DNA of 40,419 bases, taken from positions 1-40,419 of IMG/VR virus record IMGVR_UViG_3300038548_000181; one strand, 5' to 3'. The position numbers were made by a program, and so were the translations under genes. Of the stretch, positions 2,906-22,915 are shown in pieces. The stretch's first letter is position 1, and the number at the start of each line of letters is the position of its first letter. The stretch is from a virus. The notes below the pieces were generated by a model. The model was not told the origin of the DNA and searched no databases. It saw only the letters and a list, made by a program, of their open reading frames with translations.

Positions 2906-3026
2906 AGTACGAATATGAAGGGGCGCTAGGCGGCAGAATCGAACTGCATAAGTCTTAACCACCACGGGTAAATGGGAATCGAACCCAACCAGCACCTTGC
3001 ACCTAACACCACCACATATTCGTACT
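2906..3026 (-). ncRNA. Structured RNA element E1, closed by a 12-bp stem
   Basis: Read leftward, AGTACGAATATG (3026-3015) pairs perfectly with CATATTCGTACT (2917-2906), enclosing about 97 nt. Inside are two tRNA T-arm-like hairpins with TTCGATT loops (around 2973-2987 and 2933-2947) and a D-arm-like GTGGTTAAGAC segment. The outer arms (24 and 22 bases) match those of the element at 7534-7655 in inverted orientation, while the interiors differ. It lies in the 5' leader of the leftward operon. RNA status is inferred from complementarity; it could also act as DNA. Confidence 0.55.
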
Positions 3027-3034
3027 ACCAACAA

Positions 3035-3052
3035 AGCCCCAATTAAGAGGCT
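3035..3052 (-). terminator. Terminator- or attenuator-like hairpin in the leftward leader
   Basis: Read leftward, AGCCTC pairs with GGGGCT around a TTAATT loop and is followed by TTTGTT. The stem is six pairs including a G-T. It lies between the leftward promoter and element E1, so it would attenuate rather than end the operon. The T-run is interrupted, so strength is uncertain. Confidence 0.4.
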
Positions 3053-3163
3053 TGCGGGCAGTTGTCAATTGCTAGGGATTTACCCCCTGAGTTGCATTTT
3101 CTTATCCTCTGTCGAGTTTACGACTGATTAGCCTCTGTGGCGTTTTTGTTAAACTGTGAATTA

Positions 3164-3191
3164 ATAATACTCCTATCTATTAACATTGCAA
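3164..3191 (-). promoter_or_regulatory. Candidate leftward sigma70-type promoter
   Basis: Read leftward: TTGCAA (3191-3186), 16-base spacer, TATTAT (3169-3164). This would transcribe element E1 and the leftward recombination operon. The -10 box differs from consensus at one base, the -35 at two. It is inferred from motif and position. Confidence 0.45.
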
Positions 3192-3215
3192 CAACTCTTT
3201 CTTGCAATCATGCAA
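3186..3215. promoter_or_regulatory. TTGCAA-box cluster, operator candidate
   Basis: TTGCAA occurs at 3186 and 3202, and TGCAA at 3211; the last two form an inverted repeat TTGCA-ATCA-TGCAA. The boxes coincide with the -35 regions of both divergent promoter candidates. Such a site could be bound by the small HTH protein at 3259 or the XRE protein at 4013; which one, if either, cannot be told from sequence. Confidence 0.45.
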
Positions 3216-3230
3216 TTACTTCTATAAGAT
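3202..3230 (+). promoter_or_regulatory. Candidate rightward promoter
   Basis: TTGCAA (3202-3207) is followed after 17 bases by TAAGAT (3225-3230); an alternative -10 is TATAAG with a 15-base spacer. Both are weak matches. It lies 28 bases before the first rightward gene, which has an AAAGGGG ribosome site. Confidence 0.4.
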
Positions 3231-3258
3231 GGACTCAACTTAATAAAAGGGGCGAAAA

Positions 3259-3462
3259 ATGAAGCAGGTAATTTTTAAAGATATAGCCGCGTATCTAATT
3301 GAGGCGGGCGATCCATCTATTACAAGCATTGCTTATAGGTGCGGTACAACAGCCGATACAGTTAGACGTATAGCTAACGGCTCAACAACTAAGGTCGAGT
3401 ATCACATTGGCTGCGGATTGATTGAGATTCATAAAGGTGTGTTAAGGAGAGAGTGCAAATGA
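3259..3462 (+). CDS. Small HTH protein, Cro-like candidate, 67 aa
   Basis: First gene of the rightward operon, transcribed away from the divergent control region. Residues 18-43 (SITSIAYRCGTTADTVRRIA and following) read as a helix-turn-helix: helix, glycine turn, recognition helix TADTVRRIANG. Its size and position fit a Cro-like early regulator acting on the TTGCAA boxes just upstream. No family-level match is recognised, so DNA binding is an inference from the helix pattern. It overlaps the HNH gene at its stop codon. Confidence 0.7.
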   Translation: MKQVIFKDIAAYLIEAGDPSITSIAYRCGTTADTVRRIANGSTTKVEYHIGCGLIEIHKGVLRRECK

Positions 3463-4016
3463 GTCCGCGAGATGAAAGCGGCGAAACGAACGCATTGATC
3501 GTTGAAAATCTCAAATATGACCCGGAAACAGGCGTTATTTTGTGGCTAAAAGATAAAGGGAGAGGCAGGACAGGAAAGGAGGCGGGATGTCCACGTAACC
3601 CCGAGAATGGACATGTGCAGTATAGGTCTATTGGTATTAACGGGCTGCATTTATCGGCACATAGAATCGCATGGTTTCTTCATTATGAAGAGTGGCCGAA
3701 TGCAATCGATCATATAAACGGTGACGGACTCGATAATAGAATAACTAATTTAAGAAACGTGACTCGGGTAGAGAATGCCAAAAATAGCTGTATGTATGCA
3801 AATAATACAAGTGGCGTTCTTGGTGTGTCGTGGCACAAGCATAGAAAGAAGTGGGAAGTAAGAATAAGCAATAACGGAAAGTCTCTTAATATTGGATGCT
3901 TTATTGACATAGAAGATGCTAAGAAGGCAAGAGCACAAGCCGAAATTAAATATGGGTACCATCCCAATCATGGCAGGAAAAGAACTGCTTACTCACAAAC
4001 CGAGGGAAAATTATGA
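3459..4016 (+). CDS. HNH-AP2 homing-type endonuclease
   Basis: The start is taken at ATG 3459, overlapping the previous stop, giving 185 aa. The centre carries an HNH core: AHRIAWFLHYEEWPNAIDHI, then NGDGLDNRITNLRNVT, the classic IDHINGDxxDNRxxNLR motif with catalytic His in DHI and a conserved Asn. The C-terminal third (SGVLGVSWHKHRKKWEVRIS) is an AP2-type DNA-binding domain. Such proteins are free-standing homing endonucleases in phages and nick or cut DNA near their insertion point. It sits between two putative regulators, so it may be a mobile insertion in the operon. Confidence 0.9.
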   Translation: MSPRDESGETNALIVENLKYDPETGVILWLKDKGRGRTGKEAGCPRNPENGHVQYRSIGINGLHLSAHRIAWFLHYEEWPNAIDHINGDGLDNRITNLRNVTRVENAKNSCMYANNTSGVLGVSWHKHRKKWEVRISNNGKSLNIGCFIDIEDAKKARAQAEIKYGYHPNHGRKRTAYSQTEGKL

Positions 4017-4186
4017 ACTACGCAAAATTATTAATAAACAAAAGACGCGCATTACACCTAAGCCTAATAGACATGGCACGTAAGATAGGCGTATCAATGC
4101 CAGCTCTACACAATTACGAACAGGGCTTAAACGTATCAGATAGCAGCGAAGAGAAGATGATAGCTTACATTGAGGGGGTAGCATGA
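4013..4186 (+). CDS. XRE-family HTH protein, 57 aa
   Basis: The ATG at 4013 overlaps the end of the HNH gene, with a GAGGGAAAATT site before it. The frame reads MNYAKLLINKRRALHLSLID, then a canonical XRE helix-turn-helix: MARKIGVSMPALHNYEQGLN, covering the two helices and the YE.G turn. It ends with an ATGA overlap into the next gene. Single-domain XRE proteins act as phage regulators of early promoters. The nearby TTGCAA boxes are a possible target. Confidence 0.8.
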   Translation: MNYAKLLINKRRALHLSLIDMARKIGVSMPALHNYEQGLNVSDSSEEKMIAYIEGVA

Positions 4187-4551
4187 GAGATATTAAATTC
4201 AGAGCATGGCTTCCTGATGGCCATTGGGCAGTAGCGGCTTGTGGGCAAATGGTTGATGATTATGCCGAAGACAATTTATTCGAATCAATTGGGTTTTATG
4301 GTGACTGTGGCGTTATTTTTATGCAGTTCACCGGCCTAACCGACAAGAACGGAAAATCCATATATGAGGGGGATTATATTAAATCTGGCTACGACACCAC
4401 ACTAGAGGTGTATTGGTCTAACAAATTCGCGCAGTTTAGATTTAAGGAGCGCGGGCATGGTAATCAAGAATGCTTGTTTTGGGATTTAGAGCAATTTGAG
4501 GTTATCGGCAATATATACGAAAACCCCGAGCTAATGGAGGCCAAGCCATGA
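4183..4551 (+). CDS. YopX-family protein
   Basis: The product is 122 aa with the YopX pattern: N-terminal MRDIKFRAWLPDG, central FMQFTGLTDKNGKSIYEGD and C-terminal VIGNIYENPELM. The family is widespread in phages and prophages and its biochemical role is unknown. It is translationally coupled to both neighbours by 4-base ATGA overlaps. The family assignment is firm; no function is claimed. Confidence 0.9.
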   Translation: MRDIKFRAWLPDGHWAVAACGQMVDDYAEDNLFESIGFYGDCGVIFMQFTGLTDKNGKSIYEGDYIKSGYDTTLEVYWSNKFAQFRFKERGHGNQECLFWDLEQFEVIGNIYENPELMEAKP

Positions 4552-4700
4552 AATACTTACGAAAGCACATAGGCTTTAAATTGTTACTAACAGCTTTTAC
4601 ACTGCTTATGCTCCTATACGCTAATAACATCGGCTCTGCTACAGAGAAGGTAATTATACATGACCTATCAACCTATGAGGATATTGACCATGCCAGATAG
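4548..4700 (+). CDS. Small single-pass membrane protein, 50 aa
   Basis: The ATG overlaps the stop of the YopX gene (ATGA). Residues 10-26 (FKLLLTAFTLLMLLYA) form one hydrophobic segment after a basic N terminus, so it should sit in the inner membrane with N-in topology; the tail is polar and acidic (STYEDIDHAR). No family known. Coupled translation and a clean hydrophobic core support it as a gene. Confidence 0.65.
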   Translation: MKYLRKHIGFKLLLTAFTLLMLLYANNIGSATEKVIIHDLSTYEDIDHAR

Positions 4701-4881
4701 CCTAATAAGAATGAAAGAGCTGGTGATTGATATAGCAGACCTCCGCAAAGAGTTCCTGGCATCATGTAAACGCAATAAAGACCTAGAGAGCATGAATGAA
4801 CGATTGAGGGCTAAGATGGATGTTATGGAGTTACAGCATAATAACTGCATGGCTAAGCTTAAAGATAACGGCATTAGATAA
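4690..4881 (+). CDS. Coiled-coil hypothetical protein, 63 aa
   Basis: The start is placed at ATG 4690, with GAGG nine bases upstream; in-frame ATGs at 4660 and 4675 lie inside the previous gene. The product (MPDSLIRMKELVIDIADLRK...) is one long heptad-rich helix with spaced Leu and Met, so a dimeric coiled coil. Function unknown. Confidence 0.6.
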   Translation: MPDSLIRMKELVIDIADLRKEFLASCKRNKDLESMNERLRAKMDVMELQHNNCMAKLKDNGIR

Positions 4882-4894
4882 CGAGGGCGATACT

Positions 4895-5227
4895 ATGAGC
4901 GCGTATAAGGTATATGGGGTTAGCTATCTAAAGATACTGAAAAGACTGAGAAAGTCTATCTCAATAGGAAAGCTCAATGCGGACGAGCATGAAGCGAAGT
5001 GCAAGGGTTGTGCGGCAGAAGCCTTTAAGACTGAAAGCCCTACGGCTTTGTCTGCGCCATTTGATGCGCCTCAATTTTGCAATGACTTTATAGCGCTGTG
5101 CGACCCTAAAGAGTTCCGGGCGCTATCAATAAAATCTTACCAAAAAAACGGGAAAACAGTAACTAAAGGGAAGAGAGAAGGGCTTGATGCTTATACCTGG
5201 CTTCCCGCCAACGAGGGCGCACCATGA
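4895..5227 (+). CDS. Hypothetical protein with CKGC motif, 110 aa
   Basis: Start at 4895 after the standard AACGAGGG leader. The product begins MSAYKVYGVSYLKILKRLRK, carries CKGCAAEAF in the middle and ends WLPANEGAP. The single CxxC and a later cysteine could coordinate metal, but no fold is recognised. It is joined to the next gene by an ATGA overlap. Confidence 0.65.
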   Translation: MSAYKVYGVSYLKILKRLRKSISIGKLNADEHEAKCKGCAAEAFKTESPTALSAPFDAPQFCNDFIALCDPKEFRALSIKSYQKNGKTVTKGKREGLDAYTWLPANEGAP

Positions 5228-5346
5228 AAAAAAGCTTCATAGAGTCATATATAAAAACAATCTCAGATAAGCAATTGCTAAACGTGCTTAGGCTGGTTAA
5301 GAAGATGGTTTCATATAGAGGGTTAGATAAGGAGGTGGCGTCATGA
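5224..5346 (+). CDS. Hypothetical basic helical peptide, 40 aa
   Basis: The ATG overlaps the previous stop (ATGA), and the stop overlaps the next start the same way. The 40-residue product (MKKSFIESYIKTISDKQLLN...) is basic, amphipathic and helical. Tight double coupling argues for translation. No family recognised. Confidence 0.6.
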   Translation: MKKSFIESYIKTISDKQLLNVLRLVKKMVSYRGLDKEVAS

Positions 5347-5582
5347 GTGAATGGATTAGTGTAGATGATGATATGCCTGAAACTTTTGAAACTGATGGTA
5401 ACTACCACGCTTCTAAAGAGTGTTTAGTTCTTTGTGCCGGTAATTATGAACTGGGGCTTTTCCAGTATGGACCCGATAGCGGTGGCTGGCATAATTGGTA
5501 TTCACATTTTTATGAAGACACGTTTGATGGAGTGACCCATTGGATGCCACTTCCCCCACTACCTAAAGGAGAAGATCAATGA
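5343..5582 (+). CDS. DUF551-family protein
   Basis: The product is 79 aa, beginning MSEWISVDDDMPE and ending VTHWMPLPPLPKGED. The N-terminal WISVxxxxPE and C-terminal THWMPLP motifs are the two hallmarks of DUF551, a small domain common in phage accessory genes and of unknown function. Coupled by 4-base overlaps on both sides; a strong AAGGAGGTGGCGTC site precedes it. Confidence 0.9.
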   Translation: MSEWISVDDDMPETFETDGNYHASKECLVLCAGNYELGLFQYGPDSGGWHNWYSHFYEDTFDGVTHWMPLPPLPKGEDQ

Positions 5583-5965
5583 AACTTGAATGGGAAGAAC
5601 ACGAACTAAGCGGCAATCTTGAATCAGGTGTTTACTCTATCTATGATAGTGGTGATATATGGTATCTGGACGAGTTTAAGGATTCATGGGGGTTTATACC
5701 TGTCGGCCAGTTTAAAACGCTTGAGGAGGCTAAGGAGGCTGCTGATAAGATGGTGAGTCATCCATTAACACCCGCTAAAGGCCAGCCAATGCCCCGTACA
5801 ATAGAATATTACATTAAGCGGGGTGATATGGATCAAGAGCTAATCATGGAGCAGAAAGAAGAGATTAGCCGGTTAAAGCAGAAGGTTAATAATTTGAGGC
5901 AGAGGATAATTTCATTAAGGTCTGAGAGAGATAGCCAGAATGTTAATGACGTATCAATACTTTAG
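5579..5965 (+). CDS. Hypothetical protein with C-terminal coiled coil, 128 aa
   Basis: The N-terminal half (MKLEWEEHELSGNLESGVYS, then WGFIPVGQFKTLEEAKEAAD) looks like a small alpha/beta domain. Residues 85-122 (EISRLKQKVNNLRQRIISLR) form a strong coiled coil. The gene is ATGA-coupled to the DUF551 gene. No function assigned. Confidence 0.7.
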   Translation: MKLEWEEHELSGNLESGVYSIYDSGDIWYLDEFKDSWGFIPVGQFKTLEEAKEAADKMVSHPLTPAKGQPMPRTIEYYIKRGDMDQELIMEQKEEISRLKQKVNNLRQRIISLRSERDSQNVNDVSIL

Positions 5966-5974
5966 GGGGATGCA

Positions 5975-6136
5975 ATGAAAGAGCATAAGGAATGGAAAGA
6001 TAGGCATCATATTCTAGGCAGTGGCGCAAAGATTGAAGTTCTCCGTTGTACCTATATCTCGCACGAGAAGAAGGTTGCATCTATAACGGCTAATAAGATC
6101 ATCCGGAATATGATGGCCTCAATTAAAGAGGGTTAA
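5975..6136 (+). CDS. Small hypothetical protein, last gene of the early rightward operon
   Basis: The 53-codon frame has a GGGGGATGCA site before the ATG at 5975. The product is basic (MKEHKEWKDRHHILGSGAKI...) with a helical C terminus. Its stop codon lies inside a hairpin that may end the operon. No family recognised. Confidence 0.65.
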   Translation: MKEHKEWKDRHHILGSGAKIEVLRCTYISHEKKVASITANKIIRNMMASIKEG

Positions 6137-6164
6137 ATCCCCCTCTTTCGCGCTCTAGCGGGGG
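6125..6164. terminator. Hairpin between convergent operons
   Basis: AAAGAGGG (6125-6132) pairs with CCCTCTTT (6141-6148); a competing pairing joins the C-run near 6139 with GGGGG at 6160-6164. There is no good T-run, so it is a weak candidate for stopping the rightward early transcript. The remaining 120 bases to the convergent gene show only a short hairpin (6 pairs, CCACGC/GTGTGG, near 6270-6284). Confidence 0.4.
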
Positions 6165-6282
6165 TACTAGCCTTATGATTAGGGAAAATTCTAACCCCTA
6201 GCACTTACTGTTTATTTACTGACCTATGCGCAATTACAGACCGGAATGATCTAGCTAACATAGTCATAGCGAACAGCCACGC

Positions 6283-6525
6283 TTAGTGTGGTGAGCATTT
6301 AGGACAACTACAGGATAAGCCCATAGGTTGTGCTATCTCATCTGCTGAGAGGCTATCCCATAGACAACCGCTACTTCTTAATGCTTTCTCCATTATGCTA
6401 ATCTGCCTGCAATTCTTCATAAGGATTTCTTGCCAGTTAATAAGCATATCCGGCGCATAGTTATAGACTATCTCTAGATTCTCCTTGATTAACTCTAGCT
6501 CATTGGCTATTTCGTTGTTATCCAT
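6283..6525 (-). CDS. Hypothetical protein with C-terminal CxCxxC, 80 aa
   Basis: The start follows an AACGAGGGGAATATA leader. The N-terminal two thirds are helical and acidic (MDNNEIANELELIKENLEIV); the C terminus carries LSCSCPKCSPH, a possible metal site with the upstream SSGC cysteine. Transcribed opposite to its left neighbours and paired with the next small gene. Function unknown. Confidence 0.65.
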   Translation of the reverse strand: MDNNEIANELELIKENLEIVYNYAPDMLINWQEILMKNCRQISIMEKALRSSGCLWDSLSADEIAQPMGLSCSCPKCSPH

Positions 6526-6548
6526 TATATTCCCCTCGTTAACCTTTA

Positions 6549-6743
6549 TTAATCTTTATCAAACTCAGCAGCCCCAGCTTCTTGATATAAGCCAGCAAGA
6601 GTTAATCCAACAGCCTCAATCTTAGCATTCAGATTAAACTCAATAGCGGCAGGATGGTCAATCAGCAATTCATCAATCATCATAACAACCGTGCTTATTC
6701 TATCAACTAATTCTATGCCGTGGCCTTCATTATATTCACTCAT
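6549..6743 (-). CDS. Hypothetical acidic helical protein, 64 aa
   Basis: The ATG at 6743 follows an AAGGGG site. The product (MSEYNEGHGIELVDRISTVV...) is acidic, all-helical and lacks cysteines. It forms a two-gene leftward unit with the 80-aa gene. A promoter would lie in the 6744-6780 AT-rich stretch, back to back with the rightward promoter at 6780. No family recognised. Confidence 0.6.
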   Translation of the reverse strand: MSEYNEGHGIELVDRISTVVMMIDELLIDHPAAIEFNLNAKIEAVGLTLAGLYQEAGAAEFDKD

Positions 6744-6779
6744 ACAAACCCCTTATTGAAGCTTTATTATAACATAGCA

Positions 6780-6808
6780 TTGACACACAAACTGTATTGG
6801 CTGATAAT
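6780..6808 (+). promoter_or_regulatory. Strong sigma70-type promoter for the RNA locus
   Basis: TTGACA (6780-6785), 17-base spacer, GATAAT (6803-6808): a consensus -35 and a -10 with one mismatch. It points toward the tRNAs with no protein gene of size immediately downstream. It is the best promoter match in the window. Confidence 0.8.
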
Positions 6809-6814
6809 TCACAG

Positions 6815-6932
6815 CATGAAAACTTACTCAAACAACAAGTCTCTACTGCCCCCGATTTATCCGGAGGCTTTTCTGTGAGAGTTTAAAACACCTCATATTT
6901 AATAGCCTCGATTTGTTCGGGGCTTTTTTTTG
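6815..6932 (+). ncRNA. Short leader RNA with two tandem terminator hairpins
   Basis: Between the promoter at 6780 and the first tRNA there are two hairpins of the same design: GCCCCCG/CGGAGGC followed by TTTTCT (6847-6872) and GCCTCGA/TTCGGGGC followed by eight T (6905-6931). Transcription would give an RNA of about 115 nt, or be antiterminated into the tRNAs. A 20-codon ATG frame (6816-6878) lacks a ribosome site. A small regulatory RNA or attenuator are both possible. Confidence 0.6.
6905..6931 (+). terminator. Rho-independent terminator upstream of tRNA genes
   Basis: A seven-pair GC-rich stem (GCCTCGA with TCGGGGC, one G-T pair) and short loop are followed directly by eight T. This is a strong intrinsic terminator by form. 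The tRNAs begin only 11 bases later, so their transcription requires read-through or antitermination. Confidence 0.8.
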
Positions 6933-6941
6933 CCTGTTTTT

Positions 6942-7019
6942 CTGTGTGTAGCTCAGTTTGGTTAGAGTACTCGCCTTGGACGCGAGGGGTCGTAGGTTCG
7001 AATCCTACCACACAGACCA
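6942..7019 (+). tRNA. tRNA-Pro (anticodon UGG)
   Basis: A full cloverleaf can be drawn: acceptor CTGTGTG/CACACAG, D stem GCTC/GAGT, anticodon stem CTCGC/GCGAG with loop CTTGGAC (anticodon TGG), T stem GTAGG/CCTAC with loop TTCGAAT, discriminator A and encoded CCA. All stems pair fully apart from one G-T. It should decode CCA and related proline codons. Confidence 0.95.
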
Positions 7020-7025
7020 ATTTAT

Positions 7026-7103
7026 GCTCCCTTGGCCCAATTGGCAGAGGCGGCGGTTTTAGAAACCGTCCATGTCTAGGTTCGAATCCTAGAGGGAGTA
7101 CCA
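7026..7103 (+). tRNA. tRNA-Leu (anticodon UAG) with a short variable loop
   Basis: Acceptor GCTCCCT/AGGGAGT, anticodon stem GCGGT/ACCGT with loop TTTAGAA (anticodon TAG), T stem CTAGG/CCTAG with loop TTCGAAT, discriminator A, encoded CCA. It should read CUA leucine codons. The region between the anticodon and T stems is only about six bases, whereas bacterial leucine tRNAs carry a long class II variable arm; the D loop still looks leucine-like. Charging identity is therefore less certain. Confidence 0.85.
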
Positions 7104-7130
7104 TATTACTAGCACATAGGTTGAATAGTC

Positions 7131-7139
7131 TGCTATAAT
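7131..7139 (+). promoter_or_regulatory. Extended -10 promoter of the structured RNA locus
   Basis: TGCTATAAT is a perfect extended -10 element. No good -35 is visible, as is acceptable for extended -10 promoters. It is located 28 bases after the tRNA-Leu and would start transcription near 7146 into the structured region. Confidence 0.6.
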
Positions 7140-7140
7140 A

Positions 7141-7288
7141 CTGAGGTAGGCGTTTGGTAGCGCTTTAGAGAAGATTAAAGATTAGGGTCATAATGTAAGC
7201 TGATTTTAAAGAGCAAGGTTTAATACTACCAAAGTTCTTTAATCTCAACCCCAAGTCTTTAGGGTCAGTTTTCATTATGGCCTTTTTT
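7141..7288 (+). ncRNA. Structured RNA segment with crossing helices
   Basis: Three perfect or near-perfect long-range pairings are visible: TTTGGTAG (7153) with CTACCAAA (7226), GATTAAAGA (7173) with TCTTTAATC (7236), and GGTCATAATG (7186) with CATTATGGCC (7273). They cross one another, so they form a pseudoknot or alternate states. The last helix is followed by TTTTTT, like a terminator. No protein frame fits. It probably belongs to the same RNA locus as the modules at 7386-7786. Confidence 0.6.
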
Positions 7289-7364
7289 GTGCCTGTAGTT
7301 TAATTTGGTTAAAACAGTTGCCTCATAAGCTTCAGATCAGGGTTCAAATCCCGCAGGCGCACCA
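7289..7364 (+). tRNA. Degenerate tRNA-like gene, anticodon CAU (Met or Ile2)
   Basis: The ends fit a tRNA: acceptor GTGCCTG/CAGGCGC, discriminator A, encoded CCA, D stem GTTT/AAAC, loop CTCATAA with anticodon CAT. But the anticodon stem GTTGC/GCTTC has two T-T mismatches, and the T arm GGG-TTCAAAT-CCC has only three good pairs and is one base out of register with the acceptor. It may be a decayed tRNA or a tRNA-like domain of the surrounding RNA. The type of tRNA is a guess. Confidence 0.5.
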
Positions 7365-7385
7365 TTTCTAAAGGCGTTATGTAGT

Positions 7386-7525
7386 CTGTTTTAATGAGAG
7401 TAAAGCTATGCGGAAGCGTCCGACCGGTCATAAAACCGGCGGGTAGCGCCAAGCACAGTGCTGGTGAGCCACAGGCTTTAAATAAGTGGATTTGACTTCC
7501 CCAGCCAGCACTCTCTTTAAAGCAG
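7386..7525 (+). ncRNA. Structured RNA module B
   Basis: A 16-base arm (7386-7401) pairs with 7510-7525 with one mismatch and one G-T. Inside are the GC-rich hairpin CCGACCGGT/ACCGGCGG (7418-7443) and a second helix AGTGCTGG (7457) with CCAGCACT (7505). No coding frame or ribosome site is present. It is the first of three consecutive stem-closed modules. Confidence 0.6.
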
Positions 7526-7533
7526 ATTGCAGT

Positions 7534-7655
7534 AGTACGAATATGTGGTGGTGTTACCAGCTTGGCAACCAAGAAATAGTCTTAACGAGCTAGACCCTCG
7601 ATACTTGTTGTCACTGCCGTTAGTAAGCTGGCTAGCGCCCCTTCATATTCGTATT
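7534..7655 (+). ncRNA. Structured RNA module C, relative of element E1
   Basis: AGTACGAATATG (7534-7545) pairs with CATATTCGTATT (7644-7655), eleven Watson-Crick pairs plus one G-T. Inside, CCAGCTT pairs with AAGCTGG, CTTGG with CCAAG and CGAG with CTCG. The outer 24 bases on the left and 22 on the right are identical to those of E1 (2906-3026) read on the other strand; the interior is unrelated. The shared arms suggest a conserved docking or processing stem. Confidence 0.6.
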
Positions 7656-7664
7656 ACACACAGT

Positions 7665-7786
7665 CTATATAACAGGGGTGTGGCCAAACCTCTTAGGCAA
7701 GCCCTCTTATCACTGGCAACTATAGCTCTTGCTATTTGATAATGGAAAGAATGCTGGTATCGAATCCAGTCGCCCTTGTTATATAG
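7665..7786 (+). ncRNA. Structured RNA module D
   Basis: The 16-base arm CTATATAACAGGGGTG pairs with CGCCCTTGTTATATAG (7771-7786) apart from G-T and one end pair. Inside, CTGG-TATCGAAT-CCAG (7754-7769) is a T-arm-like hairpin. Module lengths B, C and D are similar (about 120-140 nt), which hints at a repeated architecture. No gene lies between here and the Phd-like gene at 7896. Confidence 0.6.
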
Positions 7787-7895
7787 ATTGTACCCCTCCA
7801 CGTTTACCCAGTTACATTAATTGCAGAAAGTAGTTGCATATCTTTTTATTTACATTACTATAGCGCATGTAGCACAATATATTAACGAGGGAAGT

Positions 7896-8060
7896 ATGAA
7901 GACATTCACATCAACGGAGCTAAGACGCGAGAGTTCAGCGGTATATAACGAAGTCCAGGAAAAGGGCAGCGTTAGTATTGTTCATAGAGACCGGCCAATG
8001 ATGGTTTTAATTACAGTTAAAGCGTTAGATAAGATAACAAGGTTAGCCGATAAGAAATAA
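7896..8060 (+). CDS. Phd/YefM-like antitoxin or repressor, 54 aa
   Basis: Start at 7896 after AACGAGGGAAGT; an upstream in-frame ATG lacks a site. The product begins MKTFTSTELRRESSAVYNEV, then GSVSIVHRDRPMMVLITVKA. This is the Phd/YefM N-terminal fold: a short helix pair, VYNEV, and the RDRP..VLI strand, which binds DNA as a dimer. The toxin-neutralising C-terminal tail is short, and no toxin gene follows. It is more probably an orphan Phd-type DNA-binding regulator. A hairpin follows directly. Confidence 0.75.
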   Translation: MKTFTSTELRRESSAVYNEVQEKGSVSIVHRDRPMMVLITVKALDKITRLADKK

Positions 8061-8065
8061 AAAAA

Positions 8066-8090
8066 CCGCCAAGCTGGGGAGCGAGGGCGG
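8066..8090 (+). terminator. Hairpin after the Phd-like gene
   Basis: CCGCC (8066-8070) pairs with GGCGG (8086-8090), flanked by an A-run upstream and CTTAATT downstream. It is short-stemmed and lacks a strong T-run in either direction, so termination would be partial. Confidence 0.4.
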
Positions 8091-8123
8091 CTTAATTAAC
8101 TACATTTACTAGAGCCAATTATA

Positions 8124-8847: not shown

Positions 8848-9039
8848 ATGCCGGCGACATTAAAAAATAGAACATGCCATGAGATGGTCTGCTGCCTAGC
8901 GCCATTCTCTGATGTGAGGCTTGAGTTTAGGATGCCTGACGGTACGCTAGTTCAAGCTGAAAAATTTGAACTTATTGATGATCACTACGAAGGTGAGACA
9001 TTAGTCATTCAAATGCAGCCTGTTATTTTTGGCGAATAA
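8848..9039 (+). CDS. Hypothetical protein, 63 aa
   Basis: Start at 8848 with AAGAGGATAGAGAG before it, a variant of the repeated leader of this region. The product (MPATLKNRTCHEMVCCLAPF...) is beta-rich, with three cysteines near the N terminus. No family recognised. It follows the replication gene without a visible terminator. Confidence 0.6.
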   Translation: MPATLKNRTCHEMVCCLAPFSDVRLEFRMPDGTLVQAEKFELIDDHYEGETLVIQMQPVIFGE

Positions 9040-10123: not shown

Positions 10124-10275
10124 ACATCAGCACACGAGAAGACACAGGCTACACCAAAGAAGATCGCATTAAAAAGCGTGTGCCAATATCAGATTACGGC
10201 AAGGCTGCTAAGGCTGAAAGGGCTAAGGCAGAGTTAAAGAGTTTAATCAAAGAGCTAACGAGGGTAGAGAAATGA
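10120..10275 (+). CDS. Probable gene with ATA start or lost start, 51 aa
   Basis: An open frame from ATA (10120) runs 51 codons and ends in an ATGA overlap with the next gene, which also carries the next leader at its 3' end. The bases before it match the regional leader (CTATGACGGGAG), but where ATG is expected the sequence reads ATAGACATC. The product is basic (REDTGYTKEDRIKKRVPISD and an Ala/Lys/Glu helix). Either a rare ATA/ATC start is used or the start has decayed; sequencing error is a third option. Confidence 0.45.
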   Translation: MDISTREDTGYTKEDRIKKRVPISDYGKAAKAERAKAELKSLIKELTRVEK

Positions 10276-10770: not shown

Positions 10771-10788
10771 TCTAACGAGGGTAGAGAA

Positions 10789-11232
10789 ATGAATATGAAA
10801 ACTTGGAACAATACAGATAAGTCAGAATGGGCAAGCGGCGAGTGGGTGGATGAGCCAGATAAGGCGCAATGGGTATCAAGCAACCTTGATTGCTTGATTG
10901 TGCGTGGGCCTATGGGCGCTCTGTGTGGCTATGTCGGAGTTCCTGAATCGCACCCTATGTTTGAGAAAGATTATAACTCAGCAGATGTTGAGGTTCATGG
11001 GGGGCTGACTTTTGCTAACAGATGCTCCCCAAGCCCAGAGGGTGATCACAAAGGTATTTGTCATGTCGAAGAGGGCGCGGCTAATGAGACTGTGTGGTGG
11101 TTAGGGTTCGACTGCGGCCATGCGTGGGATGTAATACCTAGATATGATTTCACTTTTGGCTCAGATGAAACGTACAGAAATTTTAGCTATGTTAAAAAGG
11201 AAGTTGAGGGCCTTGCTAGACAGCTAGCATAA
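10789..11232 (+). CDS. Conserved phage hypothetical protein, 147 aa
   Basis: Start after AACGAGGGTAGAGAA. The sequence is rich in Trp, Gly and Asp, with blocks I recognise as recurring in phage accessory genes: HGGLTFANRC, WWLGFDCGHAWDVIP and a C-terminal YVKKEVEGLARQL. The His/Cys/Asp clusters (FDCGHAWD, NRCS, GICHVEE) could bind metal. The function of the family is unknown. Confidence 0.75.
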   Translation: MNMKTWNNTDKSEWASGEWVDEPDKAQWVSSNLDCLIVRGPMGALCGYVGVPESHPMFEKDYNSADVEVHGGLTFANRCSPSPEGDHKGICHVEEGAANETVWWLGFDCGHAWDVIPRYDFTFGSDETYRNFSYVKKEVEGLARQLA

Positions 11233-14861: not shown

Positions 14862-15715
14862 GTATTGTTGATCAAAGTACCGCAGTAACGGCATCAAGTA
14901 CAGGTGTAGTGGTGACATCTGGCGCAGGCTCCAATACATTAGGAGGTTTTCAAGAGCTGATAGCAAGCACTAGTGTAGAAACTTATTGGTATCAACTGGC
15001 AGTCAAATCGCCTCGTGTGCTGGGGTCAGATGAAAATATAATTGTGGAGTTAGCTTTAGGCGCGGCCTTATCTGAGGTGGTTTTTTGTCGCTTTCCTGTA
15101 TTCATGAACGTCGATGGGGTTATTCCTTTGCCTCCGATGCCAAAAACGATAGCTTCCGGGTCAAGGATATCGATGCGTATACAAGCCACAGCCGCCAGCA
15201 AAACTATTGAGGTTATGATCTTTCTATCTGACAATGACGAGTTTGGAACGTCCACAGAACAGGAGTCTATCGGAGTAGATTCCGGCACATCAAGAGGTAC
15301 CGATGTTGATACCGGCTCAACAGATAACGTCAAAGGGGGCTATGTCGAACTATCTAGCAGCATATCTATAGACGCGAATTATGTGGTTGTTTTACTCGGT
15401 AACTCTGATAATAATAACCAGTCAAACTTAGCCTTTCTTTATAGCATTGCAAACGGCGCAGCTTTATCAGAAGTCGATAGAATTGATAATGCTCTATTTA
15501 GCTCCAGTTCAGTCGAGTTGTCATCCATATCGCAGGGCTTCTTTCAAGATTTTAGCTCAGCCGACCGTATATCAGTCAACGCACAAACGAACGATGCAAC
15601 GGATTCCAACGATAGGATTATAGATGTTGCAATGATACTTTTTAAAATGGTGCCCCCAGCAGGCGGCGGTGGTGGCATAGCTCAAATAGTCGGCAGCGGC
15701 GGCATAGTAGGATAA
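14858..15715 (+). CDS. Beta-rich virion-type protein with internal duplication, 285 aa
   Basis: Two halves share pattern: GAALSEVVFCRFPVF with later SRISMRIQATAASKTIEVMI, and again GAALSEVDRIDNALF with later DRISVNAQTNDATDSNDRII. This points to a tandem duplication of a roughly 130-residue beta-sandwich. The C terminus is glycine-rich (PPAGGGGGIAQIVGSGGIVG), as in tail-tip or fibre proteins. It is ATGA-coupled to the previous gene. Function: probable receptor-contact or decoration protein; inference only. Confidence 0.7.
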   Translation: MSIVDQSTAVTASSTGVVVTSGAGSNTLGGFQELIASTSVETYWYQLAVKSPRVLGSDENIIVELALGAALSEVVFCRFPVFMNVDGVIPLPPMPKTIASGSRISMRIQATAASKTIEVMIFLSDNDEFGTSTEQESIGVDSGTSRGTDVDTGSTDNVKGGYVELSSSISIDANYVVVLLGNSDNNNQSNLAFLYSIANGAALSEVDRIDNALFSSSSVELSSISQGFFQDFSSADRISVNAQTNDATDSNDRIIDVAMILFKMVPPAGGGGGIAQIVGSGGIVG

Positions 15716-15718
15716 ATT

Positions 15719-16114
15719 ATGGATTTAGGCGATAGAGCAGAAGATTCGACAATTGATTTTAAATTCCCTACAAGGAACGTCAGCGCGGCCCCTGCTACAT
15801 TAGCGGGAACGCCTGTCATATCAGTGTATAAGGCTAACGGAACTACTGAGAGCGTGGCAGGTGTTACGCTAACGGTTGATTTTGACGGTAAAACAGGAAT
15901 GCACCACGTTAGAATTGATACGTCAGCAGATGCTTTTTATGCAATAGCTAATGACTATGATGTGGTTATCACTACAGGCACAGTCAACAGCGTATCAGTG
16001 GTGGGCTATCCCGTAGCGTCATTCTCAATAGAAAACAGATTTACCAATGTTAATCAAATTAACGATGTTCCAGTTATAGGCGTGGGTACATCTGGCGATA
16101 AATGGCGGGCTTAG
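15719..16114 (+). CDS. Conserved phage structural-type protein, 131 aa
   Basis: The product begins MDLGDRAEDSTIDFKFPTRN and contains GVTLTVDFDGKTGMHHVRID and YDVVITTGTVNSVSVVGYPV, a recurring phage beta-sandwich family. It follows the previous gene by three bases. The usual neighbours of this family are repeat-rich virion proteins, as here. Role unknown. Confidence 0.7.
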   Translation: MDLGDRAEDSTIDFKFPTRNVSAAPATLAGTPVISVYKANGTTESVAGVTLTVDFDGKTGMHHVRIDTSADAFYAIANDYDVVITTGTVNSVSVVGYPVASFSIENRFTNVNQINDVPVIGVGTSGDKWRA

Positions 16115-16117
16115 ATA

Positions 16118-17023
16118 ATGGCCTCGTTTGACTCCAGTGCTTTTGATACCGATGCGTTTGACGTTGATGCGTTTGATATTGATGTAGGGATAACAGGCTC
16201 AGGTGCTCTAGCATCTCAAAGCGCCACTACATCAGGAACAGCCGAGATAGTTAAGACTGGCTCCGGCGCTTTAGCTTCACAATCAGCAAGCACAGCGGGT
16301 ACAGGTGCAGTTGGGGCAGTAGTAACAGGTAGCGGCGTTCTATTATCCCAGGTTGCAACGACTAGCGGCACAGCGGAAATAGTAAAAACCTCCACAGGAG
16401 CCTTACAGTCACAATCAGCAGCAACCAGTGGTACAGGTGTTGTAAGCGCAATCATCACAGGGAGTGGCGCACTTCTATCTCAAGATGCCACAACCTCCGG
16501 CACAGCAGAGATAGTCAAGACAAGTACGGGTGCGTTACAATCTCAGGACGCAGTAACAGCCGGTAGCGGTGATGTAACAGCAGGAGTAATAGGAGAGGGA
16601 GAGCTACAGGCCCAAGACGCTAACACAAGCGGCACGGGGCTAATAGAGAAAACCAGCACAGGCGCGCTACAGTCTCAAAACGCCACCACATCAGGCGCGG
16701 GTAAGCTAGAGAGGAAAGGTTCAGGCGTATTAGTCTCTCAAAGCTCACAAACGCAAGGCACAGGCTTTGTAGGGCAAGTAGTTACACAGGATTGCTTTAC
16801 AGCCTTAACATCGCTAATAGAGCCATTCAATGCGTTTACAGGGTTAATTGATGATGGTGATACAGTAGTCACAGGTATCATTAACGAGTTTACAGCCAGA
16901 AACAGCTTTATTGATGCAAGTGATATAGTATTAAGTAGCTTGATTGATCCAGAAGGGCTAAGTATTAACAGCAACATACAACCAACATTCAATATAACCA
17001 GCGAGCTATGCAATTGTGAGTAA
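16118..17023 (+). CDS. Repeat-rich probable tail/fibre or decoration protein, 301 aa
   Basis: The N terminus has an AFD repeat (SSAFDTDAFDVDAFDIDVGI). Residues about 26-222 hold nine tandem units of 20-23 aa with core GxGxLxSQxAxTxGT; two flavours alternate (GSGALASQ and STGALQSQ). The C terminus is a different domain ending ITSELCNCE. Such Ser/Thr/Ala/Gln-rich repeats build extended beta structures in phage fibres and collars. The repeat number may vary between relatives. The function is an inference. Confidence 0.75.
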   Translation: MASFDSSAFDTDAFDVDAFDIDVGITGSGALASQSATTSGTAEIVKTGSGALASQSASTAGTGAVGAVVTGSGVLLSQVATTSGTAEIVKTSTGALQSQSAATSGTGVVSAIITGSGALLSQDATTSGTAEIVKTSTGALQSQDAVTAGSGDVTAGVIGEGELQAQDANTSGTGLIEKTSTGALQSQNATTSGAGKLERKGSGVLVSQSSQTQGTGFVGQVVTQDCFTALTSLIEPFNAFTGLIDDGDTVVTGIINEFTARNSFIDASDIVLSSLIDPEGLSINSNIQPTFNITSELCNCE

Positions 17024-17026
17024 ATT

Positions 17027-17359
17027 ATGAGCTTAAAAGTAGGCGAAATCGGTAAGATTATAAACGTGAATGCAAAGTTCGATATGTCGGGTAATACTGA
17101 TTTAGAGATAAACTTTATCAAGACAGACTTAAGCACGTTGACAGTCAACAAGGCAGGTGGTGTATCAGCTCCAGCTATACCCTTTACCGATCCAGACACA
17201 GGCGAGATATTCGCAGCTAATGAATACTGGAGCTATGCCACTAAATCAGGTGACATCGACCAATCAGGAGCCTGGACATTGTCAGGCCGATACATAGATG
17301 CAACACCTAAAGATTTTTGCGGGGATACAGCTAACTTCACAGTATTGCCTTGTGGATAA
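17027..17359 (+). CDS. Small beta-sandwich late protein, 110 aa
   Basis: The product (MSLKVGEIGKIINVNAKFDM...) has alternating strands, with YWSYATKSGDIDQSGAWTLS typical of small Ig-like phage proteins, and two cysteines at the end. It overlaps the HNH gene start by one base. Function unknown; virion part is inferred from the neighbours. Confidence 0.65.
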   Translation: MSLKVGEIGKIINVNAKFDMSGNTDLEINFIKTDLSTLTVNKAGGVSAPAIPFTDPDTGEIFAANEYWSYATKSGDIDQSGAWTLSGRYIDATPKDFCGDTANFTVLPCG

Positions 17360-17703
17360 TGCACGTAGTCTATTTACTACTAGCAGGATTTGTAGCTAGC
17401 CTGATACTGGGAGACATACAAACCCATCAAAAGGAGTTAGCTGAGTATTTAGCTAAGCGTAAGAAGAAGGTTAATTTCTATTCAACATGGGCATGGCGTA
17501 AACTAAGGTACAAAGTCATTAAGCACTACGGACGTACTTGTATGATGTGCAACGCTCACGGCGAGGGCGTACAGATACAGGTAGACCACATTAAACCAAG
17601 AAGCCTATATCCAGAAGATGCCTTAGACTTCGACAACATGCAGATTTTATGCGCTGATTGCAATATGGGTAAGAGCAATGCAGACTTCACAGATTGGCGA
17701 TAA
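17359..17703 (+). CDS. HNH endonuclease with N-terminal membrane segment
   Basis: The product is 114 aa from ATG 17359. Residues 1-16 are hydrophobic (MHVVYLLLAGFVASLILG). Residues 40-110 carry the HNH core: WRKLRYKVIKHYGRTCMMC, VDHIKPRSLYPEDALDFDN and MQILCADCNMGKSN, with the two CxxC pairs and DHI histidine in place. HNH proteins next to terminase genes assist DNA packaging in many phages. The membrane segment is unusual and could be a mis-set start or a real anchor. Confidence 0.85.
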   Translation: MHVVYLLLAGFVASLILGDIQTHQKELAEYLAKRKKKVNFYSTWAWRKLRYKVIKHYGRTCMMCNAHGEGVQIQVDHIKPRSLYPEDALDFDNMQILCADCNMGKSNADFTDWR

Positions 17704-17715
17704 ATAAAGTATAAT
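17686..17715 (+). promoter_or_regulatory. Promoter candidate before the packaging genes
   Basis: TTCACA (17686-17691), 18-base spacer, TATAAT (17710-17715): -35 with one mismatch and a perfect -10. It lies at the 3' end of the HNH gene and would drive the small basic gene and the terminase-portal block. Confidence 0.6.
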
Positions 17716-17740
17716 ACTGTATAAGATAACAGGTGAGACT

Positions 17741-17839
17741 ATGGCACATAAAAAGCCAGTAAGAGGCCAAAGAGTAAAGACCAATAAGGCCACATCACAT
17801 AAGCGCAAGACAAAGAAAGCAACGAGGGGTAAGAAATGA
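17741..17839 (+). CDS. Tiny highly basic protein, 32 aa
   Basis: The 32-codon frame (MAHKKPVRGQRVKTNKATSH...) is almost half Lys, Arg and His, so it should bind nucleic acid. A GGTGAGACT site precedes it and its stop overlaps the next start (ATGA). No family known; it could be a DNA-condensing or internal virion peptide, which is a guess. Confidence 0.55.
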   Translation: MAHKKPVRGQRVKTNKATSHKRKTKKATRGKK

Positions 17840-18087
17840 CTTTTGAGGAATGGGCAAACGAAGGCATAAATTATGTTGTCATTGATGACTGGGGTAATGC
17901 TAAAGAGATATGGGAGGCGGCATATAACGAAGCGCTCAAGGCAGCTAGTGAATATATCATTGAATGCGAGGGCACTGACTTCGATCTCATTAAAACGCTA
18001 GAAATAACAGAAGACGAAGAGCTAGCCCAAATAGCAGAATCACGCAAAGACCAAGAAGAGATAGAGGTAGATATAGAATGCCTATAA
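17836..18087 (+). CDS. Hypothetical acidic protein, 83 aa
   Basis: The start follows AACGAGGGGTAAGA. The product (MTFEEWANEGINYVVIDDWG...) is strongly acidic, with an aromatic N-terminal domain and a Glu-rich tail. It is coupled to the basic peptide upstream, so the opposite charges might pair. No family recognised. Confidence 0.65.
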   Translation: MTFEEWANEGINYVVIDDWGNAKEIWEAAYNEALKAASEYIIECEGTDFDLIKTLEITEDEELAQIAESRKDQEEIEVDIECL

Positions 18088-18155
18088 ACAAAGCTTATAT
18101 GTACTTAAACCTATTAACAGACACTAAAGGCCATAGGATAGATATCTATGCCTAA
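18078..18155 (+). CDS. Possible 25-aa peptide overlapping terminase start
   Basis: A short ATG frame (MPINKAYMYLNLLTDTKGHR...) bridges the 60-base gap between two genes and overlaps both. There is no convincing ribosome site. It is listed only as a candidate for coupled translation into the terminase gene. Confidence 0.25.
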   Translation: MPINKAYMYLNLLTDTKGHRIDIYA

Positions 18156-18693
18156 ACTAACCGCTAAACAACAAGCATTCTGCGAAGAGTACCTAATTGA
18201 TTTAAATGCTACTCAAGCTGCTATACGTGCGGAGTACAGCGAAGATACAGCAAGACAGATAGGATCAGAGAACTTGTCAAAACCAGCTATAGCCGATTAC
18301 ATAGCTGAGCTTCAAGCTAAACGTAGCGCTAAGACAGCAATAACTGCTGACTACGTGCTTTCAAGCCTTCACAAGGTAGCTGAGAGATGTATGCAAGCTG
18401 TGCCTGTTATGGAGTTCGACAAGGGCGAGGGAGGCATGAAGGAAACAGGAGAGTATAAGTTCGAACACTCAGGGGCTAACAAATCACTAGAGCTATTAGG
18501 TAAACACCTAGCCTTATTCACAGACAAGACAGAAGTTACAGGGACTATTGGTATAGAGGCTTATGAACTCACTGAAACAGAGCGAAGTGCGCGAATTGCT
18601 GCCTTACTTAACCAAGGCCGAAGCCGAAGAGATGGAAAGGCTGATAACTCAGGGAGTGCCGAAGTGGACACCGCTGGAAGGCCCACAGACTGA
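18148..18693 (+). CDS. terS: Terminase small subunit
   Basis: The product is 181 aa with the Terminase_2 pattern: LTAKQQAFCEEYLIDLNATQ, AAIRAEYSEDTARQIGSENL, then a helical core with DYVLSSLHKVAERC, and a basic C-terminal tail (RSRRDGKADNSG). The N-terminal HTH binds packaging sites in the DNA, and the ring-forming core passes it to the large subunit. It overlaps the large subunit gene by 131 bases, so the C-terminal tail is encoded in two frames. The family is firm; headful packaging is inferred from the P22-like context. Confidence 0.9.
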   Translation: MPKLTAKQQAFCEEYLIDLNATQAAIRAEYSEDTARQIGSENLSKPAIADYIAELQAKRSAKTAITADYVLSSLHKVAERCMQAVPVMEFDKGEGGMKETGEYKFEHSGANKSLELLGKHLALFTDKTEVTGTIGIEAYELTETERSARIAALLNQGRSRRDGKADNSGSAEVDTAGRPTD

Positions 18694-20083
18694 AGCTTAT
18701 GACTCACTAGCTGATATTGTAGGTTATGGTGGTGCGGCAGGAGGGGGCAAGACAGACTTAGAGGTAGGCTTAGCACTAACTAGGCATACCAGGTCTATTA
18801 TCTACAGGCATGACGGAACACAGCTACAAGGCATATACGACCGCATAGAAGAGATAGTAGGTAGCAGGGACGGATTTAGTGAGCAGATAAAGAAGTGGCG
18901 CATTGACGGTAGGATTATAGAGTTTGGCGGTGTATGTGCCAAGCCTTTAGATTACAAGAAGTACCAAGGCAGGCCACACGACTTAAAATGCTTTGATGAA
19001 GTCACTGAAATGCCTGAGTTTGTTGTCAGGTTTTTAATGGGATGGCAGCGATCAAGCGACCCTAACCAGAGATGTAGGGTACTGATGGCGTTTAACCCAC
19101 CAACAACTAGCGATGGTCGATGGGTAATAGATTTCTTTGGCCCTTGGCTGAACAAGAAACACCTTAACCCTGCCAAACCTGGAGAGCTTAGATATTACAC
19201 AACTATTGAAGGCAAAGACGTTGAGCTGCCTAACGGCGATCCTGTAGAGGTGGAAGGCGAAATGGTTACCCCTCTATCAAGAACATTTATACCCGCCAGA
19301 GTAGAGGACAATGTTTATTATATGGAGTCAGGATATAAGGCTACATTGCAGGCTCTACCTGAACCACTAAGAAGCCAGATGTTAAAGGGCGACTTTGCGG
19401 CAGGCATGGAAGAAAGCCCATGGCAGGTAATCCCCACTAAATGGGTGGAGGAGGCTATAGCTAGATGGGAGCCACTACGCACTAAGGTTCCAATGGATTC
19501 AATGGGCGTTGATGTAGCAAGGGGCGGTAAAGACTTTACAGTCATATCTAAGCGACATGGTAACTGGTTTGATAAGCTTGTTAAGTATCCAGGCACAGCA
19601 ACGCCAGATGGCCCTATTACAGCAGGGCTAGTCATCAATGAGAGGCGAGACAAAGCCCCTGTTCATATCGACGTTATAGGTTGGGGTTCAAGCCCTTATG
19701 ACTTCCTGAAAGAGAACGGTGTTCACACAATCCCTATCAATAGCGCTGAATCTGCCAAGGATGCAGCCGGTGAGCCGCTACTAAGCAAAGAAGGTGAGCT
19801 TAAGTTTATCAATGTGCGAGCAAAGTTATGGTGGAGGATGAGAGAAGCCCTCGACCCAGCTAATGGCGAGCTTATAGCCCTGCCTGATGATGATGACTTG
19901 TTAACTCAGCTAACCTGTTTAACATGGTCATTCACCAAACAGGGCATTAAGGTAGAGTCTAAGGAAGACGTGTATACTAGGATTCAAAGATCAACCGATG
20001 ACGCTGATGCTATAATTTATGCAAATGTAGACACGCCAAAAGAGTCAGCAGAACCTATAAAACTTAATCAGAGTGGATGGTAA
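18563..20083 (+). CDS. terL: Terminase large subunit
   Basis: The product is 506 aa. Walker A GYGGAAGGGKTDL (about residues 53-65) drives ATP-powered DNA translocation; the Walker B region is LKCFDEVTEMPEF; the C-terminal nuclease half contains MGVDVARGGKDFTVI and downstream acidic residues. The start at 18563 (GAGGCTT before ATG) is supported by the N-terminal segment ELLPYLTKAEAEEMERL, which relatives also have; a shorter start at 18632 is possible. The motor acts at the portal vertex. It ends in a TAATG overlap with the portal gene. Confidence 0.95.
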   Translation: MNSLKQSEVRELLPYLTKAEAEEMERLITQGVPKWTPLEGPQTEAYDSLADIVGYGGAAGGGKTDLEVGLALTRHTRSIIYRHDGTQLQGIYDRIEEIVGSRDGFSEQIKKWRIDGRIIEFGGVCAKPLDYKKYQGRPHDLKCFDEVTEMPEFVVRFLMGWQRSSDPNQRCRVLMAFNPPTTSDGRWVIDFFGPWLNKKHLNPAKPGELRYYTTIEGKDVELPNGDPVEVEGEMVTPLSRTFIPARVEDNVYYMESGYKATLQALPEPLRSQMLKGDFAAGMEESPWQVIPTKWVEEAIARWEPLRTKVPMDSMGVDVARGGKDFTVISKRHGNWFDKLVKYPGTATPDGPITAGLVINERRDKAPVHIDVIGWGSSPYDFLKENGVHTIPINSAESAKDAAGEPLLSKEGELKFINVRAKLWWRMREALDPANGELIALPDDDDLLTQLTCLTWSFTKQGIKVESKEDVYTRIQRSTDDADAIIYANVDTPKESAEPIKLNQSGW

Positions 20084-22320: not shown

Positions 22321-22324
22321 AGGA

Positions 22325-22441
22325 TTAGCCCCAAATCAACTGAACTACCACAGGTATGCCAATCATAAAGCCGAAAAACATGCATGTAATTAATATTACC
22401 TCGTTGTCTGATTCTTTGAACCCTAACTGGTGCTTGTCCAT
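22325..22441 (-). CDS. Small membrane protein of the portal-scaffold moron, 38 aa
   Basis: The frame starts at 22441 with GGGAGGGGTAGAT before the ATG. The product (MDKHQLGFKESDNEVILITC...) has one hydrophobic helix, residues 14-37. It is the last gene of a leftward four-gene unit lying against the late direction. Function unknown. Confidence 0.6.
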   Translation of the reverse strand: MDKHQLGFKESDNEVILITCMFFGFMIGIPVVVQLIWG

Positions 22442-22443
22442 AT

Positions 22444-22578
22444 CTACCCCTCCCATTTATCTAAACCATACAGAACAAAAGCAGCAGCTAGAAAGGAACT
22501 ACCGGCGGCAACATCAACAAATAGAAACGCAACGGAGAATATAATACAGGCCCAATAAGCCTTATCTAATTTACTCAT
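22444..22578 (-). CDS. Small membrane protein of the moron, 44 aa
   Basis: The ATG at 22578 overlaps the end of the Phd-like gene by eight bases. The product (MSKLDKAYWACIIFSVAFLF...) has two short hydrophobic segments (residues 9-21 and 22-37), enough for one or two spans. It is two bases from the next gene. Possible roles include superinfection exclusion, but no homology supports this. Confidence 0.65.
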   Translation of the reverse strand: MSKLDKAYWACIIFSVAFLFVDVAAGSSFLAAAFVLYGLDKWEG

Positions 22579-22738
22579 CATCAACCTCCTTCTCAGGCTC
22601 TCTACGCTCTCTACCCTTTAATATAAACACTTTATCAGGATAGCGATCATGGTTAATAAGTGCTTCCCCGTTCTTATCCACTTCGCTAAATATCTTAGCT
22701 GGACGGTTGCTTAGGTCACTTGCGCTATACGTCTTCAT
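22571..22738 (-). CDS. Phd/YefM-like protein of the moron, 55 aa
   Basis: Start at 22738 with ATAAGGATAAGA before the ATG. The product begins MKTYSASDLSNRPAKIFSEV and continues NGEALINHDRYPDKVFILKG, the Phd/YefM DNA-binding fold, and resembles the Phd-like protein at 7896. The tail is Arg/Glu-rich and short. The upstream gene overlaps by 14 bases and is not a recognised toxin. It probably represses its own operon through the inverted repeat at 22916-22941. Confidence 0.75.
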   Translation of the reverse strand: MKTYSASDLSNRPAKIFSEVDKNGEALINHDRYPDKVFILKGRERREPEKEVDDE

Positions 22739-22898: not shown

Positions 22899-22915
22899 TC
22901 CTATCTCTCCTCTCA

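Follow-up and report, generated by a model that had tools for sequence, protein, structure and literature searches.

We analysed the virus record IMGVR_UViG_3300038548_000181 over its whole length of 40,419 bases (hereafter the window), which encodes a P22-type portal and coat. Two hairpin elements, X5 on the minus strand and X3 on the plus strand, are the subject of this report. X5 is isolated, 22 bases upstream of the leftward gene 2611-2883. X3 lies in a plus-strand cluster with the following order: promoter-like site, tRNA-Pro, tRNA-Leu, X1, tRNA-Met, X2, X3, X4, and a Phd/YefM-like gene (Table 1). Judging from the sequences, we propose that X3 and X5 are members of a family of transcribed, structured phage RNA modules, each with a constant frame and a variable interior, putatively freed by host RNase III. 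We put the probability of this proposal at roughly two in three. The virus is distant from cultured phages: the closest relative of the portal is that of Pseudoalteromonas virus vB_PspP-H6/1, at 36% identity, and a megablast of window 15000-35000 against cultured phages gave no match.

Table 1. Features of the window and members of the two hairpin families. Positions are those of the window.
Feature	Position or records	Strand	Remarks
X5, type A cassette	2906-3026	minus	Leader of leftward operon (gene 2611-2883, minus); 12-bp handle AGTACGAATATG/CATATTCGTACT
Predicted RNA released from X5	2918-3012	minus	From handle length, cut offset (passage in PMC4357697) and the usual 2-nt 3′ overhang
Promoter-like site ahead of cluster	6780-6808	plus	11/12 consensus match only
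tRNA-Pro(tgg)	6942-7019	plus	tRNA prediction, same cluster
tRNA-Leu(tag)	7026-7103	plus	tRNA prediction
X1, conserved leader RNA with crossing helices, ending CCTTTTTTGTG	7160-7287	plus	Similar elements ahead of the array in relatives (by eye)
tRNA-Met(cat)	7288-7363	plus	tRNA prediction
X2, type B cassette (AAUGAGAGUAAAG .. GCACUCUCUUU)	7383-7528	plus	Internal three-way junction
Predicted RNA released from X2	7397-7516	plus
X3, type A cassette	7534-7655	plus	12-bp handle AGTACGAATATG/CATATTCGTATT
Predicted RNA released from X3	7548-7643	plus	Inferred from handle length and cut offset
X4, third handle-bearing hairpin	7662-7789	plus	AG + 12 bp, then AGGGG/CCCUU; tRNA-like arms inside
Predicted RNA released from X4	7676-7777	plus
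Phd/YefM-type antitoxin-like gene	7896-8060	plus	Directly after cluster; kept in L004
Type A members	window (2), L004, L005, L026, L015, L017, L030 (2), L031/G011 (2), L032
Type B members	window (7383-7528), L026 (2), L015, L016, L017, L030, L031, L040, L042, L045

Two inverted hairpins and their relatives

Over 25 nucleotides (nt), window segment 3004-3028 is the exact reverse complement of 7532-7556, and 2908-2934 matches 7627-7653 at 93% over 27 nt. The arms pair with each other inside X3 and inside X5. Between the two elements, 45 of the 46 arm bases are the same. The interiors (75-76 nt) have a similarity score of 6.0 against a shuffled mean of 7.09, that is, no better than shuffles. Of the inverted exact 18-mer pairs in the window, 20 in all, X3 and X5 account for 13; 20 first-order Markov windows held none. 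Both elements fold far better than their dinucleotide shuffles, with z of -5.50 and -5.62 (0 of 200 shuffles as good). The preliminary description of this DNA, two inverted elements with matching arms and unrelated interiors, is thus borne out far above chance, and the ends it gave (2906 and 3026; 7534 and 7655) are the ends of a conserved handle of 12 base pairs (bp).

Further members were found by scans of viral contigs, by a mismatch search of the relatives' loci, and by a search of whole records. L-numbers and G011 denote such viral-contig loci or records; L012 and L026 are parts of one record, as are L031 and G011. X3 and X5 belong to type A, with 12 elements in 9 phage records. A sister hairpin (type B) is represented by 11 elements from 10 records, and where A and B adjoin, the gap is 2-7 bases. 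L032 and L045 come from the same metagenome and may be one phage. The arms are therefore neither absent from relatives nor confined to one copy per genome, three records having two copies each. The earlier suggestion of cassette-like RNAs with a shared docking helix is supported by the 12 type A copies, their covarying helix, and their interiors, unrelated even where the arms are identical.

The phages carrying A or B are diverse. A P22-type portal is present in 4 of the 12 relatives' records (3 above the cut-off), and within the stretches compared no protein is common to all of them, which fits recognition by a host factor. Rows of the viral-contig scans judged to be chance or unclear were dropped: 5 of 7 (L006-L010), 2 of 5 (L011, L013), and 11 of 19 (L039, L041, L043, L044, L046-L052). 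Among the unclear ones is a B-like element, GATGAGGGTAAAAG..AGCACCCTCTTT, at L050 4400-4560 and also in L051 and L052, one near-identical stretch in the tRNA arrays of large phages. These large phages, one with a transfer-messenger RNA (tmRNA), have many other unnamed stretches between their tRNAs. Four stretches of species genomes that match the B pattern were judged chance matches, the frame being missing; that scan covered B only.

An Rfam 15 scan of the window returned only the three tRNAs above gathering score, and one of L012 returned sub-threshold matches only. Blastn against cultured phages, with the whole region, with the arrays of two relatives, and (E up to 10) with A and B elements one by one, brought up neither A nor B. 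The matches were to tRNAs or due to chance, apart from one Salicola phage and two Vibrio phages in which parts of the cluster other than A and B are present. Resemblances to hammerhead, k-turn, signal recognition particle, and 5S RNAs were weighed solely by eye and set aside. When ARAGORN was allowed introns and pseudogenes, its lists were not meaningful.

Frame, helix, and interiors

Types A and B are unlike in sequence and are built to the same measure, as follows. Counted from the base, the helix opens with an A-U pair, continues with G-U or G-C at pair 2 and ten further pairs, and meets a U.U mismatch at place 13 in nearly all copies (U opposite A in L005 and L045). Above this frame, type A continues with UGGU/CCUU and then GGUGYUA/UAGCACC, and type B with GAGAGU/ACUCUC. 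The 5′ A and G are invariant in 11/11 type A and 10/10 type B elements, and the 3′-terminal U is present in 11/11 and 9/10, respectively. The second G011 copy of type A, which has AG/UU and 11 of 12 pairs by eye, was omitted from the invariance, covariation, handle, interior, and control counts, hence n = 11. The type B element of L031 (one bulge, one mismatch; AG/UU by eye) was omitted from the handle, invariance, covariation, and control counts, and that of L040 from the handle measurement and the 12-bp-helix control. The type B element of L045 is almost symmetrical.

The frame can be written as a rule: A-G, 12 bp, mismatch, long loop, Y-U. In the handle comparison the uniform ends and the lack of A.C are partly built in, the ends having been set by that rule; the argument for a frame rests on the unfiltered columns and on the invariance and covariation counts instead. 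X4 and a tRNA-Leu-like RNA of L030 carry the same handle, and both were found via the rule itself. As a control, A-G/Y-U occurs in 29 of 322 other 12-bp long-loop helices of the same loci, a count in which registers of one helix may recur. A 117-nt hairpin RNA in two nearly unchanged copies in L005 (4393-4509 and 4909-5025, minus) also has an AG/UU base.

Covariation was computed on ungapped arm alignments. In type A, 99.5% of 220 cells are paired and 7 of 20 pairs have changed on both sides; the covariation score is 0.384, compared with 0.140 for shuffled arms (none of 500 reached it) and no more than 0.110 when the arms are slid by 1-3. Type B gives much the same picture, with 98.3% of 180 cells paired, 8 of 18 pairs changed on both sides, and a score of 0.421 against 0.146 shuffled (0 of 500 as high) and at most 0.111 when slid. 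In the unfiltered outer 12 columns, G.U exceeds A.C by 12 to 4 in type A and by 12 to 1 in type B, an excess that points to an RNA read from the motif strand. The nearest open reading frames (ORFs) are co-directional in 28 cases and opposite in 7. The G-U pairs and the adjacent genes together point to the A and B modules being RNA made from that strand.

Type A interiors range from 56 to 156 nt (11 copies), and their mean pair similarity is 8.07 against 7.64 shuffled. A few pairs exceed most of their shuffles; the best is L026-L015, at 15.0. The base helix is free to vary, yet the same 12 bases are found in X3, X5, L004, and L005. L017 and L032 agree in all 46 arm bases, and their interiors score below shuffles. 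Since identical arms surround unrelated interiors, frames and interiors have separate histories. The interiors are replaced, or change much faster than the arms, and an exchange of interiors between frames may have taken place. In type B the interiors are more constrained: a three-way junction is found repeatedly (by eye), and the interiors of X2 and L016 score 26, with 84% identity over 37 nt. A BLAST search of 23 interiors against the relatives' loci gave no other relative of note. The modules, then, look like interchangeable RNA cassettes.

Predicted cleavage by RNase III and competing explanations

We suggest that host RNase III would take the A-G/Y-U pairs as its distal box and would cut at the mismatch, 12 nt away. 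Each module would thereby be released from a polycistronic transcript shared with tRNAs and the leader. For E. coli RNase III, a passage in PMC5141509 places the distal box, UU/AG, 10-11 positions from the cut centre and the proximal box, CWUW/WAWG, at 2-5. Passages in PMC4357697 place the distal box at -11 and -12 and describe G-C as missing from the middle of the proximal box, and one in PMC11780869 reports U-G wobble as enriched in the distal box. The helix is long enough for RNase III, and with the cut assumed at the mismatch, A-U and G-Y fall at -12 and -11 and agree with UU/AG. The distal-box pair is G.U in 6/11 type A and 7/10 type B elements, and G-C occupies place -5 in 0 of 21 elements of both types.

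The RNase III signals of phage T7 (R0.3 to R18.5) provide a yardstick. At what we take to be their places and cut bases, A-U/G-Y lies exactly 12 nt from the cut in 7/7 sites located by script (10 tried), the 12th base past the cut being paired with the A of an AG. The T7 signals resemble the modules in being irregular hairpins in which a base helix leads to a mismatch or internal loop where the cut falls. Of the type A elements, 10/11 keep CCUU ahead of the predicted cut (CCAA in L005), much as T7 signals do. The differences are that T7 signals have short loops and a 10-bp AAGGUC/GGCCUU-like stem, whereas the modules have a fully paired base helix, a different upper motif, and 56-156 nt of variable sequence as the loop. 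The model substrate R1.1 is cut into 47 and 13 nt, according to passages in PMC4858673 and PMC6121014. A second comparison is with the modules' long helix enclosing structured RNA. Precursors of ribosomal RNA have such a helix, which is cut by RNase III, the enzyme proposed here; unlike those stems, the modules are short, occur several to a phage, and have unrelated interiors. RNase III processing hairpins are known. Tandem modules with a common handle and seemingly interchangeable contents appear to be new as far as we searched, and no description of them was found by title or abstract in the open-licence literature.

Several points weigh against the proposal. The type B element of L040 lacks the A-U pair, though its G.U is kept. 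In the register set by the distal box, the proximal box CWUW/WAWG fits at 3 of 4 places, with A-U/U-A where G-C is expected; type A does have a perfect UAUG/CAUA box, but 2 bp nearer the junction. A match to the consensus is weak proof in any case, since E. coli sites determined by RNA sequencing fit it poorly, as a passage in PMC5371410 states. The conservation of GGUGYUA/UAGCACC beyond the cut is unexplained by RNase III and may reflect another binder or protection of the ends of the freed RNA. Finally, the co-directionality of the ORFs is incomplete, 7 being opposite against 28.

The hairpins could instead be RNase III sites that merely shape the transcript, by trimming leaders, separating tRNAs, or setting mRNA stability, with the interiors as unselected filler. 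T7 uses RNase III sites for mRNA processing, type A interiors show no conservation, and X5, in its leader, and the second G011 copy both lie just ahead of a gene. We think this unlikely, given that the interiors are of 56-156 nt, not short loops, that they fold within strongly folding elements, and that those of type B retain the three-way junction (by eye) and, in X2 and L016, some sequence. At the DNA level, the arms might be recombination sites, as the preliminary description suggested along with a possible inversion of the 4.6-kb region between the facing copies (2906-7655), or else terminal inverted repeats. The near-identical arms, their inverted orientation, and the identical arms around unrelated interiors in different phages would suit it. 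Integron attC sites, too, have conserved ends around a variable middle, with RYYYAAC and GTTRRRY boxes in opposite arms; these boxes are absent from 12/12 type A elements on either strand, and the modules differ further in their RNA strand bias. Inversion is not supported because the arms are kept by pairing, not by sequence: outer stems change freely between phages provided that pairing holds. The copies also recur within an RNA cluster and are mostly oriented as the neighbouring genes are. Inverted homology of 25 bp is by itself weak grounds for inversion, nothing beyond geometry favours it, and we regard mobile DNA as extremely improbable.

Two further explanations invoke known RNA types. 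Antiterminator RNAs such as put of phage HK022, which would bind RNA polymerase in cis, are comparable as structured cis RNAs in a phage transcript with a possible host target; X5 would act on the leftward operon. X5 sits in the leader, the array comes after terminator-like hairpins, and a universal host target would explain the spread among unrelated phages. A passage in PMC9378689 describes put as about 70 nt with two adjacent stem-loops. Type A, by contrast, forms a single long hairpin whose interior varies, several of the copies are arranged in tandem downstream of tRNAs, put and the modules have no sequence match, and no type A motif pair occurs in HK022 28000-40751; such a role is improbable. 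The elements might also be tRNA genes that have decayed, or decoys resembling tRNAs, in either case retained inside a hairpin. By eye, two hairpins of X5 resemble T loops (UUCGAUU), parts of X4 resemble D and T arms, and a tRNA-Leu-like body sits within a 12-bp handle at L030 215-356. Against this, cmscan with E up to 5 matched none of X2-X4 to a tRNA, nor did X5 match one at the gathering threshold, and most type A interiors have no tRNA parts by eye. We consider a tRNA origin decidedly improbable.

Neighbouring RNAs and the role of the modules

A leader like X1, with crossing helices and a run like CCCTTTTTTGTG, precedes the RNA cluster in many of these phages. Besides the window (7160-7287), it is found in L015, L016, L017, L026, L030, and L045, in L027 (~5795-5935), and in L028 (~5765-5895); in two cultured Vibrio phages, 1.110.O and 1.240.O, it also stands ahead of a tRNA. 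Its appearance suggests a terminator-antiterminator for the transcript of the RNA cluster or for the late transcript. At the other end of the cluster, a conserved hairpin AAAAAACCGCC..GGCGG follows the Phd-like gene in the window (8061-8092) and in L004 (~588-620). A search for further phages with the Phd-like protein returned the L004 contig again and nothing else.

Unusual tRNA-like RNAs are found in the window and its relatives. The D-arm-like and T-arm-like parts of X4 (7662-7789) lack the usual GG and have one extra base in the T loop. In the L030 RNA the acceptor stem extends into the handle and the anticodon region is altered; ARAGORN does not call it. L016 (~5628-5705) has a tRNA-Phe-like RNA with a normal GAA anticodon arm and an abnormal T loop, beside a normal tRNA-Cys. 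The tRNAs at L032 ~8870-9000 and L050 ~3900-4070 have normal-looking D and T arms and some 60-90 extra bases in the anticodon region. An element GTAAGTCTT..GAAAA..CCGGGGAAGGGCCGG is present in L026 (~868-945) and L029 (~2195-2275), and also among the tRNAs of Salicola phage SCTP-2.

Elsewhere in the window, 3468-4013 encodes an HNH endonuclease that also matches an AP2 domain weakly, a combination seen in homing endonucleases; it has relatives in L037 and L045. The inverted repeat at 2227-2250, 10256-10275, and 10773-10792 is the common ribosome-binding region (TAACGAGGGTAGAGAAATG) of several genes.

It is tempting to go beyond the family itself and to picture a phage RNA cassette system, in which host RNase III would excise tandem modules from a single transcript, the frames would be common to unrelated phages, and the interiors would be swapped or diversified fast because they would work in trans on host targets that keep changing, perhaps as regulators or as decoys for host defence. 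We hold this wider picture to be possible rather than probable, and the trans-acting role of the freed RNAs during infection is a guess. The modules make up two RNA families, A and B, without an Rfam match, and the rule given above is a simple means of finding more. Provided that the freed RNAs are stable, one host enzyme would give phages a modular route to many unrelated structured RNAs, and the interiors would be a candidate list of host-directed RNAs.

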